The notes beneath the pieces are model-generated. The model saw only the letters and a program-made list of their open reading frames with translations. It was not told the origin of the DNA and made no database searches. A stretch of DNA of 64,000 nucleotides, from assembly GCA_013297755.1 (NCBI GenBank), contig JAAFIH010000012.1, positions 1 through 64,000 of the forward strand. The letters run 5' to 3'. This DNA comes from Cytophagales bacterium (GTDB lineage Bacteria; Bacteroidota; Bacteroidia; Cytophagales; UBA9547). Position numbers and translations under genes: made by a program. Shown in pieces: positions 8,098-12,177 of the stretch (its first letter is position 1; every line of letters starts with the position of its first letter).

Positions 8098-8562
8098 TTA
8101 TGGTATATGTAGGGTTCGGTTGGTGCTTTCTTGTAGAGAAATAAAAGTTTCTGTACGTTCTATTCCACTTATTTTTTGAATTTTATCATGTAGCAATTCC
8201 ATCAAATGTTTGGTATCTTTACAGATTAATTTTGCAAAAATACTATAATTACCTGTGGTATAATTGATGCTTAAAATTTGTGGAATAGTTAATAAATCTT
8301 TTACAACTGTATCGTATAGCGAACTTTCTTTAAGATATATACCCAAAAATGCAGTAATGTCATAACCAATTTTTGTATAATCTATGATTAATTGCGAACC
8401 AATGATAACCCCTAATTGTTCCATTTTTTTCATACGAACATGGACTGTACCAGCCGAAACACACACCATTTTGCCAATTTCAGTATACGGTATTTGAGCA
8501 TTTTGTGTTAAAATAGACAATATTTTTAAATCTATTTTATCAATTTCATAATTATCTGTCAT
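8098..8562 (-). CDS. Lrp/AsnC family transcriptional regulator
   Basis: From the ATG at 8562 the product has 154 residues, the usual Lrp length. The opening DNYEIDKIDLKILSILTQNAQIPYTEIGKMV is a textbook Lrp winged helix-turn-helix start, followed by VSAGTVHVRMKKMEQLGVI (recognition helix) and a C-terminal RAM/AsnC effector domain. An in-frame ATG at 8583 would add seven residues with no family match, so the shorter start is preferred. It directly precedes the T9SS type B gene by 3 bases, so it may be cotranscribed with that gene. A TATTTTTG motif lies about 30 bases upstream. Confidence 0.88.
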   Translation of the reverse strand: MTDNYEIDKIDLKILSILTQNAQIPYTEIGKMVCVSAGTVHVRMKKMEQLGVIIGSQLIIDYTKIGYDITAFLGIYLKESSLYDTVVKDLLTIPQILSINYTTGNYSIFAKLICKDTKHLMELLHDKIQKISGIERTETFISLQESTNRTLHIP

Positions 8563-8646: not shown

Positions 8647-8678
8647 TTTGTAAAATATTAATCATCCAATTACTTTTG
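8647..8678 (+). promoter_or_regulatory. Bacteroidota promoter of the tRNA-like gene
   Basis: TTTG at 8647-8650, a 20-base spacer, then TACTTTTG at 8671-8678: both the -33 and -7 elements match the Bacteroidota sigma consensus. The predicted start is near 8684, about 26 bases before the acceptor stem of the tRNA-like gene. The same spacing occurs upstream of the PorP/SprF gene. Confidence 0.65.
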
Positions 8679-8709
8679 CATTATCAAATACATAGTATTT
8701 GAAACACCT

Positions 8710-8821
8710 TGTAGAGTGTTGAAATTGGCAGACATACCCTCCTATCCCGAGGGTGGGGAACAAAGGATAAACCCGCAAGGGCTAACTTCTCCGTGGGTTG
8801 GTTCGAATCCCCCCTCTACAG
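8710..8821 (+). tRNA. Aberrant class II tRNA-like gene (Leu-like D-arm)
   Basis: A tRNA-shaped gene of 112 bases against about 85 for tRNA-Leu. The acceptor stem is a perfect 7-bp TGTAGAG/CTCTACA (8710-8716 with 8814-8820), with G8821 as discriminator position. Bases 8717-8718 are the expected TG, followed by a Leu-type D-arm (GAAATTGGCAGAC). The anticodon stem is a perfect CCCTC/GAGGG (8737-8741 with 8749-8753), but its 7-base loop is CTATCCC, reading ATC at positions 34-36 rather than any Leu or Ser anticodon. About 41 bases follow instead of 11-24; they can fold as GGGGAA/TTCTCC plus CCC-GCAA-GGG. The T-loop TTCGAAT is canonical, but the T-stem pairs only if TT (8798-8799) bulges. No CCA is encoded. 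Its own promoter and terminator argue for expression. It could be a diverged tRNA, a tRNA-like regulatory RNA or a pseudogene. Confidence 0.5.
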
Positions 8822-8829
8822 CTTTTATT

Positions 8830-8870
8830 AAGCCAAAAATCGTAAATATATTACTTTTTTTGGCTTTTTT
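8830..8870 (+). terminator. Intrinsic terminator after the tRNA-like gene
   Basis: AAGCCAAAAA (8830-8839) pairs with TTTTTGGCTT (8857-8866), followed by a T run. It closes the tRNA-like transcript and, because the stem is A/T-flanked on both sides, may also serve the convergent HNH gene. Confidence 0.7.
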
Positions 8871-8894
8871 TTATTTATTTTTTAATTATTGTAA

Positions 8895-9624: not shown

Positions 9625-12177
9625 TTGACTCAAACTACCGAAAATTTAAGATTACAAGCGGCCGAGGATGGCACTCATTGGAAAAAATTTGGTCCCTACT
9701 TATCAGAACGCCAATGGGGGACAGTGCGAGAGGATTACAGTGCTTATGGTGCCGCTTGGGAGGCTTTTACACATGACGAAGCTAGATCGAGAGTATATAG
9801 GTGGGGAGAAGATGGGTTGATGGGTTTTTCTGACGAAAATCAACTTATTTGTTTTGCTTTAGCTTTTTGGAATGGCAAAGATTCCATCCTAAAAGAACGT
9901 CTTTTTGGGCTAACTGGCACTCAGGGCAACCATAGCGAGGATGTCAAAGAATATTACTATTATTTGGCTTCCACTCCTACACATTCTTACATGAAAATGA
10001 GGTATAAATATCCTCAGAGTGCTTTTCCGTATAGTTTATTAGTATCAGAAAATGAACTAAGAAATAAATCAACGCCAGAGTTTGAGCTGTGCGATACAGC
10101 CATTTTTGAAAATAATAAATATTTTAATATTGATGTAGAATATGCCAAAAATAATCCAAATGATATTTTAATAAAAATTACTATTGAAAATAAATCTTCT
10201 GAAGCTACAAATATTACTATTTTGCCAACATTATGGTTTAGAAATACTTGGAATTGGGGCTACGATGACTATAAACCTCATCTTGATTTATCTGAAAATA
10301 CTTTAGTAGCTACTCATCAAGAATTAGGAAATTATTACTTATATTCCGAAAATCAGTATCCATTTTTGTTTACCGAAAACGAAACTAATGCTACTCGACT
10401 GTATGGACTTGCCAGCAAAACACCTTTTGTAAAAGATGCCTTTCATGAATATATCATCAATGGAAGAAAAGAGGCAGTTAATGAATCAAAAAAAGGCACT
10501 AAAGCTGCACTACATATTCATTTAGAATTTGAAAAACTTGATGTTAAAGTAATAAATCTTAGATTTACGAATGATAAAAATTTGTATGATGAACGACAAA
10601 ACTTACATCCTTTTACAGATTTTGATTCCATTTTTTTTCAAAGAAAATCAGAATTTGATGATTTTTATCAATCCACTTTTCAAAGTACCAATCTTGAACT
10701 TGGAAAACAGCTTATGGCTGGTATGTTTTGGAGCAAACAGTATTATGAATACAATGTAAAAAAATGGTTATTTGGCGATCCCAATCAATTTCCACCCCCA
10801 AAAGAACGCCAAAAAGGCCGAAATTCAACTTGGCAACATATCCACAACAAAGATATTATTTCTATGCCCGACAAATGGGAATATCCCTGGTTTGCAGCCT
10901 GGGATAGTGCTTTTCATTGCATAGCTATTGCAAAGTCTGATTGTTTTTTTGCAAAAAATCAACTTTTGATGTTTCTTTCAGATAGATATATCAACGAATA
11001 TGGCCAGATTCCTGCGTATGAATGGGCTTTTGGCGATGTCAATCCCCCTGTTTTGGCAATGGCTATTTGGGAAGTTTATTTAATTGATTCATCAAAAAAT
11101 ATTACTAAAGATATTTCTTTTTTAATAAAAGCATTTGATAAATTGCAACTCAATTTTAATTGGTGGCTCAATACTCAAACCAAAAACAATAGAATGATTT
11201 TTGGTGGTGGTTTTTTGGGGTTAGATAACGTAGCTGTTGTAGATAGAGGTAAGCCTTTGCCTTTTGGCCACTGGCTCGAACAGGCCGATGGCACTGCTTG
11301 GATGGCTCGATTTGCTTTAGATTTAGTAAAAATTGCTCTCGAAATTGATAAATACAATCAAATATATACAGACAGAGCTTTGTTTTATACGAAGATATTT
11401 TTTAAAATATCTTATGAATTAAATCATTCGGAAAGTGGGCTATGGAGTAATAAAACCGAGTTTTATCATGATAAAATTACAAATTTTTCAAATGAAAATA
11501 TTTTTTTAGACCATAAAAATATTGTTGGATTATTACCTTTGATAGCTTCTGATGTGATACTAAATGATGATTTGATTACGAGAAATTATTTTGAGGATGT
11601 ATCCTTTTTTTTAAATGAAAACGACCAGTATAATCCTTATTTCAAGGATATTGGCAGTAATAAATTTTACTTTTCATGTGTACCCGAAGAGCGATTTTTT
11701 AAACTAAAATCAAGTTTATTTTCTACAAATGAATTTAATGGAAAATTTGGAATAAGGTCTTTATCCTACCAATATAAAGAAAATCCTTATAAAATTAATT
11801 TGTTTTCTGAAAATTTTACAATGGCATACACACCAAGAGAAAGTACAACAACTAATTTTGGCGAAAATTCTAATTGGAGAGGTCCAGTATGGTTGCCTGT
11901 AAACTATGTTTTATTGCAAAGTATGTTGGTTCATGCTCAATTTTATGGAAATGATTTATTAGATAAGAGAAAGGACATTATTACTAATTTAACACATATA
12001 TTTGTTGAAAATAGTCAGGGTTTTTTGCCCATTTATACAGATACATTATTGTCAAAAATGGATGATTTCAATAAAATGCCGCTTTTTTATGAGTTTTTTG
12101 ACCCAGAAACTGGCAAAGGTGTAGGAGCCGCACATCAAACAGGTTGGACTGCCTTGTTGGCAGTGTTGATAGATTGA
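9625..12177 (+). CDS. GH63/MGH1-type glucosidase
   Basis: An 850-residue cytoplasmic-looking glycoside hydrolase of the mannosyl-oligosaccharide glucosidase (GH63) type. The N-terminus (EDGTHWKKFGPYLSERQWGT) is characteristic of the bacterial branch. An (alpha/alpha)6-barrel follows, with PWFAAWDSAFH (Asp427 is a good catalytic candidate), LEQADGTAWMARF (about 551-563) and GPVWLPVNYV (from 753). The natural substrate is unclear; bacterial members act on alpha-glucosides such as glucosylglycerate or mannosylglycerate. No signal peptide is visible. The start is a TTG with no in-frame ATG before the conserved N-terminal block, so TTG is preferred. It is apparently monocistronic, with a convergent SGNH gene 19 bases downstream. 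Confidence 0.88.
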   Translation: MTQTTENLRLQAAEDGTHWKKFGPYLSERQWGTVREDYSAYGAAWEAFTHDEARSRVYRWGEDGLMGFSDENQLICFALAFWNGKDSILKERLFGLTGTQGNHSEDVKEYYYYLASTPTHSYMKMRYKYPQSAFPYSLLVSENELRNKSTPEFELCDTAIFENNKYFNIDVEYAKNNPNDILIKITIENKSSEATNITILPTLWFRNTWNWGYDDYKPHLDLSENTLVATHQELGNYYLYSENQYPFLFTENETNATRLYGLASKTPFVKDAFHEYIINGRKEAVNESKKGTKAALHIHLEFEKLDVKVINLRFTNDKNLYDERQNLHPFTDFDSIFFQRKSEFDDFYQSTFQSTNLELGKQLMAGMFWSKQYYEYNVKKWLFGDPNQFPPPKERQKGRNSTWQHIHNKDIISMPDKWEYPWFAAWDSAFHCIAIAKSDCFFAKNQLLMFLSDRYINEYGQIPAYEWAFGDVNPPVLAMAIWEVYLIDSSKNITKDISFLIKAFDKLQLNFNWWLNTQTKNNRMIFGGGFLGLDNVAVVDRGKPLPFGHWLEQADGTAWMARFALDLVKIALEIDKYNQIYTDRALFYTKIFFKISYELNHSESGLWSNKTEFYHDKITNFSNENIFLDHKNIVGLLPLIASDVILNDDLITRNYFEDVSFFLNENDQYNPYFKDIGSNKFYFSCVPEERFFKLKSSLFSTNEFNGKFGIRSLSYQYKENPYKINLFSENFTMAYTPRESTTTNFGENSNWRGPVWLPVNYVLLQSMLVHAQFYGNDLLDKRKDIITNLTHIFVENSQGFLPIYTDTLLSKMDDFNKMPLFYEFFDPETGKGVGAAHQTGWTALLAVLID

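Follow-up and report, generated by a model that had tools for sequence, protein, structure and literature searches.

What is the role of a stand-alone RNA gene that has the stems of a tRNA, a body resembling that of tRNA-Leu and an anticodon loop foreign to any tRNA-Leu? This question is raised by a locus of a Cytophagales bacterium (assembly GCA_013297755.1, contig JAAFIH010000012.1), analysed here within a stretch of 64,000 nucleotides referred to as the window. A first, sequence-only reading of this locus had proposed an intact but non-canonical tRNA-like RNA that has a non-Leu loop and could stem from a tRNA-Leu; this description proved to be right, the tRNA-Leu descent included.

An intact tRNA-like RNA with an expanded variable arm

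The features of the locus are collected in Table 1. The RNA has the acceptor, D, anticodon and T stems of a tRNA, together with TG at positions 8-9, G18G19 and a TTCRA T-loop. The acceptor stem of 7 bp, the TG, the Leu-type D-arm, the anticodon stem, the TTCGAAT loop and the TT bulge announced by the sequence-only reading were confirmed by direct reading, and the promoter and terminator that it assigned to the gene are both present by sequence. The first D-stem pair of the window copy (8719/8735) is a T.T mismatch, leaving two of three D-stem pairs where most relatives have three. The C encoded after the discriminator likewise follows the window genome's own tRNAs.

Table 1. Positions of the tRNA-like RNA, its parts and the divergent regulator gene in the window
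Feature	Position	Strand	Details or basis
Divergent AsnC-like regulator gene (Lrp/AsnC family)	8098-8562	-	PF01037, PF13404
Bacteroidota-type promoter	8648-8679	+	TTTG-N20-TACTTTTG
tRNA-like RNA, U1 to G73	8710-8821	+	covariance model (CM) and covariation
Acceptor stem	8710-8716/8814-8820	+	TGTAGAG/CTCTACA, 7 bp
TG dinucleotide	8717-8718	+	read from sequence
D-arm	8719-8735	+	Leu-type loop AAATTGGCAGA with G18G19
Anticodon arm	8737-8753	+	stem 8737-8741/8749-8753 CCCTC/GAGGG; loop 8742-8748 CTATCCC
Variable region	8754-8794	+	expanded arm 8755-8792
Variable arm parts	8755-8792	+	V1 GGGG/CTCC; V2 AAG/CTT; internal loop GATAAA/CTAA; hairpin CCC-GCAA-GGG
T-arm	8795-8813	+	TT bulge; loop TTCGAAT
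Discriminator G73 and encoded C74	8821-8822	+	
Intrinsic terminator	about 8830-8872	+	AAGCCAAAAA ... TTTTTTTGGCTTTTTTTT; from sequence

The structure was evaluated on an alignment of 33 sequences made without structure as a guide. Paired cells amount to 93.8% against 49-60% in slid controls, two-sided changes occur in 20 of the 30 pairs, and the covariation score reaches 0.394; shuffles give 0.182 and slid partners 0.10-0.16. By this comparative measure every stem is backed by covariation, V1 and V2 of the variable arm included, which confirms the oversized variable region and the two-stem arm with a GCAA hairpin first drawn from the window copy alone. The D-stem covaries as TTG/CAA, ATG/CAT, GTG/CAC and ACG/CGT; the T-stem covaries as well, and its TT bulge is seen again in several genera. 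The CTAA strand of the variable-arm internal loop is kept in 124 of 129 copies. The single-sequence fold is modest (z -2.26) with a misfolded variable arm, so that preference goes to the comparative structure. The RNA of the window is confirmed as real and intact.

A widespread family missed by current annotation

ARAGORN called no tRNA in the window, and the RNA matches no Rfam family above cut-off. Neither resource delivered the ordinary tRNA-Leu call that the sequence-only reading had named as its possible undoing. The sole Rfam match at E values up to 10, sRNA-Xcc1, was attributed to chance (19 bits for a cut-off of 53). Relatives, whose search had been suggested together with that for covariation in the variable arm, are nevertheless abundant: they were found by blastn in 46 of 98 related genomes, and 129 copies of the family were collected across 79 loci. 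A CM trained on a set that includes the window copy (model R1) matches this copy with 119.6 bits (E 2.9e-32, search over 1.5 Mb). The family is well separated from ordinary tRNA-Leu, its full-length members scoring at least 79.8 bits (most >100) and tRNA-Leu about 70 or less, and the gap persists in genomes outside the training set.

The searches spanning many genomes were conducted on drafts with strict filters. At E below 1e-20, the CM detected the RNA in about 286 of the 390 genomes of the order (roughly 73%, counted by hand), as well as in further families of the class, and again in a second class of Bacteroidota. Named matches include Chitinophaga, Saprospiraceae, Dyadobacter, Spirosoma, Hymenobacter, Pontibacter, Algoriphagus and one Ignavibacteriales genome. 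ARAGORN without introns called none of the 129 copies; with introns it gave inconsistent anticodons in 22 of them, and the intron reading was rejected. No description of an RNA of this kind was found in the open-access papers searched. On the evidence of these comparisons, the RNA belongs to an undescribed, conserved family that current annotation misses.

The copy number is variable, with tandem arrays reaching five RNA copies. Five loci (L057, L147, L150, L152 and L056) carry 4-5 tandem copies at a spacing of about 200 bp with near-identical spacers. A mobile element was rejected: no match was found in plasmids or phages, and although arrays and dispersed copies exist, the clusters of neighbouring genes contain no recurrent recombinase. 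Some genomes of a Hymenobacter-like genus contain a shortened RNA of 76 nt that lacks the variable arm and shares the loop, U1-A72 and G73, which implies that this arm is not indispensable. One such short form (L308:2039-2114, minus strand, 76 nt) has its own promoter and terminator, and this Hymenobacter-like genome also has AsnA. A palindromic repeat, TCCCGATAGCTATCGGGA, is located inside the variable arm of some copies (L023) or across the D-arm of others (L157:9891-10022 and 10071-10202), the latter being probably broken. Apparently decayed remnants lie beside the AsnC-like gene in L315, L327, L328 and L317, in genomes that have AsnA, an intact array elsewhere or a GatB-AspRS fusion. A few genomes have, just 3' of the RNA, a gene for a TrmB-like methyltransferase (PF02390), as at L177:9072-9785 and related loci.

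Could the RNA itself be a pseudogene left by a decayed tRNA-Leu, or resemble a tRNA by chance? Its body is nearest to the tRNA-Leu(GAG) of the window genome and ARAGORN makes no call; against this stand the conservation over two classes, the strong covariation and the invariant positions described below, and the probability of such an origin is practically negligible. The earlier opinion that the gene is not the product of random decay is borne out by the same conservation and covariation.

Aspartate identity and amidation marks on an RNA probably unfit for decoding

Acceptor statistics were computed on 129 copies and loop statistics on the 127 copies with a seven-base loop. U1-A72, G2-C71, G73 and the encoded C74 are each found in 129 of 129 copies, and U35, C36 and C38 each in 127 of 127, within the loop consensus Y N N U C Y C. 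At position 34, G is found in 100 of 127 copies, and the copy of the window has A. The identity elements of tRNA-Asp are G73, G34, U35, C36 and C38 plus G2-C71 (PMC9976931): the whole set is found in the family, all but G34 being invariant. U1-A72, which no copy lacks, is the amidation signal of GatCAB, and the G1-C72 pair of tRNA-Asp blocks amidation (PMC4206432, PMC9976931).

Two classes of long-armed tRNA can be set aside. Bacterial LeuRS requires A73, whereas the RNA has an invariant G73 and a loop without a Leu anticodon; the tRNA-Ser of the window genome have A or T at position 73 and an acceptor of the type AGAGAG. In this genome, G73 is found only in tRNA-Asp, tRNA-Asn and tRNA-Trp. 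The likeness to tRNA-Leu, a type II tRNA, is that of the GAG isoacceptor and concerns the D-arm and body sequence, the long variable arm, G18G19 and the T-loop; the differences are G73, the Asp-like loop, U1-A72 and the two-stem variable arm with its conserved internal loop. Conversely, the RNA resembles tRNA-Asp(GUC) by G73, (G34)U35C36, C38 and G2-C71, and differs from it by U1-A72, pyrimidine 37, a relaxed U33 and the type II body.

The RNA could still be a tRNA with an unusual loop that decodes Asp codons or a rare reassigned codon. The loop is indeed like that of tRNA-Asp, and ARAGORN calls the short form of one genome (G021) tRNA-Asp(atc). A decoding loop is expected to have U33 and a purine at position 37; here, position 37 is a pyrimidine in 126 of 127 copies and U33 is found in only 98 of 127. 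Moreover, U1-A72 stands in place of G1-C72, and the window genome has a complete set of normal tRNAs with tRNA-Asp, tRNA-Asn, tRNA-Cys and, by the count of Leu tRNAs that had been recommended, four tRNA-Leu. Decoding is accordingly regarded as highly unlikely. The complete set, in which tRNA-Cys was found, also led to the rejection of a role as stand-in for missing tRNAs. Read from the aligned copies, the RNA is a Leu-type body that combines the marks of AspRS and GatCAB with a loop devoid of the decoding requirements. The sequence-only reading is in this respect only partly supported. Its structure and its case against decay stand, but the ATC that it took for the anticodon is not in use, the loop being a crippled tRNA-Asp loop; the Asp character of this loop, G73, U1-A72, the AsnC-like partner and the replacement by synthetases had escaped it, since one sequence could not reveal them.

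An AsnC-like regulator and the replacement of the RNA by asparagine synthetases

The best NCBIfam match of the regulator divergent from the RNA is PRK11179 (AsnC), with 151 bits for the window copy and 70 for the next family. The curated cut-off of 227 is missed (151-173 bits), and the protein is therefore designated AsnC-like and not filed as AsnC. Clustering of the neighbouring proteins at 75 loci gave one strong signal, which is this gene: a divergent Lrp/AsnC-family gene is located 123-328 bp upstream of the RNA in 46 of these loci, which come from two classes. A promoter-like match precedes the RNA in 43 of the 46, some being -7-only matches. In the other 29 loci the AsnC-like gene is not adjacent to the RNA. 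The AsnC-like gene often neighbours the SUF operon. An orthologue of the regulator is present in 78 of the 80 RNA-containing genomes checked.

Fe-S assembly (suf) genes come after the regulator in part of the loci (L059, L061, L069, L131, L133, L148, L159, L164, L169 and L186), with SufB/D as next gene in 14 of 46. A role linked to SUF was rejected, these genes being confined to that subset and absent from this position in the window.

The slot divergent to the regulator was then read in genomes having the regulator and lacking the RNA. In two of them (G195 and G159) asparagine synthetase A is divergent to the regulator (319.9 and 313.4 bits for a cut-off of 309), with an archaeal asparagine synthetase A as best PDB match. 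In a third (G441), asparagine synthase B lies divergently at 118 bp from an AsnC-like gene; its score falls short of the cut-off in the strict AsnB model (491.8, cut-off 499) and passes it in asn_synth_AEB (362.8, cut-off 267). Elsewhere the slot is taken by an apparently decayed RNA or holds no more than a short transcript; in G227 it contains a different gene. In Escherichia coli, asnC and asnA are a divergent pair; the same arrangement of an AsnC-like regulator with a gene of asparagine synthesis would be found here, that gene being an RNA gene.

A U/G-rich segment, such as TTTGGTTTTTAGTTTGTTGATGAAGTGTAA or TTATGTGTTGTTTATTGGTTAAGGT, is conserved ahead of the terminator whether the tRNA-like RNA is there or not (sites in L317, L326, L327, L328, L331 and L320-L322; 3' of the RNA in L059, L065, L129, L131, L134-L139 and others). 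It is single copy in nearly all genomes having one, and may be a small-RNA seed. The tRNA-like part could then be a 5' module that serves mainly the maturation or stability of a 3' small RNA, as would be suggested by a segment that recurs 3' of the RNA and is also found, in loci without the RNA, divergent to AsnC-like genes. In many copies, that of the window among them, nothing but a terminator follows the tRNA-like RNA, and such a module leaves the invariant marks of AspRS and GatCAB unexplained; we consider it very unlikely.

Co-occurrence with the genes of asparagine synthesis

GatB, surveyed among GatA, GatB and GatC as the indicator of GatCAB, is present in 32 of 32 RNA-containing genomes and in 28 of 45 RNA-less ones (Fisher p 2e-5, uncorrected for phylogeny). 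AsnB shows the opposite distribution: 0 of 39 genomes with the RNA, short form included, have it above cut-off, against 11 of 41 without (p 3e-4, likewise uncorrected for phylogeny). These contrasts recur inside families f4, f11, f13, f15, f23 and f24. Longer AsnB-like paralogues, far under cut-off, are found in a few RNA-containing genomes, and AsnA in 3 of 39 plus one just under cut-off, in genome-wide surveys that covered AsnA and AsnB as distinct from the PRK06462-type asparagine synthetase A. The window genome has AsnRS, one AspRS, LysRS and GatB; neither AsnA nor AsnB was found in it. No second AspRS was found in the 14 RNA-containing genomes tested.

In three RNA-less genera (G274, G292 and G363), GatB exists solely as a GatB-AspRS fusion, and a genome of another family with an RNA remnant (G073) has such a fusion beside a normal GatB. 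The fusion proteins are about 1100 aa long (L335:5254-8559, minus strand; L336:7086-10424, plus strand; L337; L338), and GatA is directly upstream in L335, L336 and L338, the three loci with that side read. In G292 and G274 the fusion is closely followed by the U/G-rich segment. In several RNA-less genomes GatB is present and both AsnA and AsnB are missing, which implies that another route to asparagine exists; an example is the non-discriminating AspRS acting with tRNA-Asn in Bdellovibrio (PMC4206432).

The main rival of a biosynthetic role is a regulatory sensor or decoy in the same circuit, bound or charged by AspRS and perhaps by GatCAB without making asparagine in bulk, whose charging state or abundance would tune AspRS, AsnC or target mRNAs. 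The pairing of the RNA with the regulator gene, the conserved internal loop of the variable arm, to which no role is assigned, and the separate U/G-rich segment after the RNA in many loci are in its favor. The asparagine-making enzymes that occupy the slot and the absence of AsnB in 39 of 39 RNA-containing genomes point instead to biosynthesis, and up to five tandem copies suggest a need for dosage. A sensor seems, on balance, unlikely.

A predicted carrier for tRNA-dependent asparagine synthesis

The RNA is probably a dedicated, non-decoding carrier for tRNA-dependent asparagine synthesis. This role is favored by the joint marks of AspRS and GatCAB, the divergent AsnC-like gene, the slot replacement by asparagine synthetases, the co-occurrence with GatB, the lack of AsnB in RNA-containing genomes, the GatB-AspRS fusions and a window genome without AsnA or AsnB. 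The RNA would be transcribed from the promoter divergent from the regulator, under AsnC-type control, and the intact tRNA body with its encoded C74 suggests a tRNA-like maturation by RNase P, RNase Z and CCA addition. AspRS would then load aspartate through G73, (G34)U35C36, C38 and G2-C71, and GatCAB would read U1-A72 and amidate Asp-RNA to Asn-RNA. Asparagine would be freed by spontaneous or enzymatic deacylation and feed AsnRS and other uses. The loop would retain only the positions read by AspRS: having lost U33 and purine 37, an Asn-charged RNA should not insert asparagine at Asp codons.

Several points count against this carrier. G34 is variable, with A34 in the window; AspRS, as a class II enzyme, approaches tRNA from the side of the variable arm, so that a long arm must be tolerated; AsnA occurs in the four RNA-containing genomes mentioned above, and the regulator is not adjacent in 29 loci and is often a neighbour of the SUF operon.

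Staphylococcal tRNA-Gly for cell-wall peptides is likewise a non-translational tRNA, an aminoacyl carrier unfit for the ribosome; the amino acid, ancestry and pathway are different here, and the suggested product is free asparagine. The predicted chemistry, from Asp-tRNA to Asn-tRNA, is that of AspRS and GatCAB on tRNA-Asn in Deinococcus, Thermus and Bdellovibrio, with the same U1-A72 signal and in bacteria that have AsnRS without AsnA or AsnB (PMC4206432). Unlike the decoding tRNA-Asn, the carrier would be a separate RNA whose loop identity is of the Asp type; a discriminating AspRS could charge this RNA, and it should take no part in decoding.

Significance for the Bacteroidota

To our knowledge, tRNA-dependent asparagine synthesis is known only on decoding tRNA-Asn. 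Loading this tRNA with aspartate carries a risk of mistranslation and depends on a non-discriminating AspRS, two difficulties that a separate carrier outside decoding would remove. If true, it would also explain why many Bacteroidota retain GatCAB despite AsnRS, and would be a clear example of a tRNA that has become a cofactor of metabolism. A widespread RNA family, overlooked by present annotation, is added, and the source of asparagine in Bacteroidota without AsnA or AsnB becomes directly testable in the cultured, non-pathogenic genera Chitinophaga, Dyadobacter, Spirosoma and Algoriphagus. With a chance that we put slightly above even, a large part of this phylum would run a piece of primary metabolism in which an RNA carrier under AsnC-type control replaces an asparagine synthetase gene, a former translation tRNA having become a cofactor of biosynthesis.
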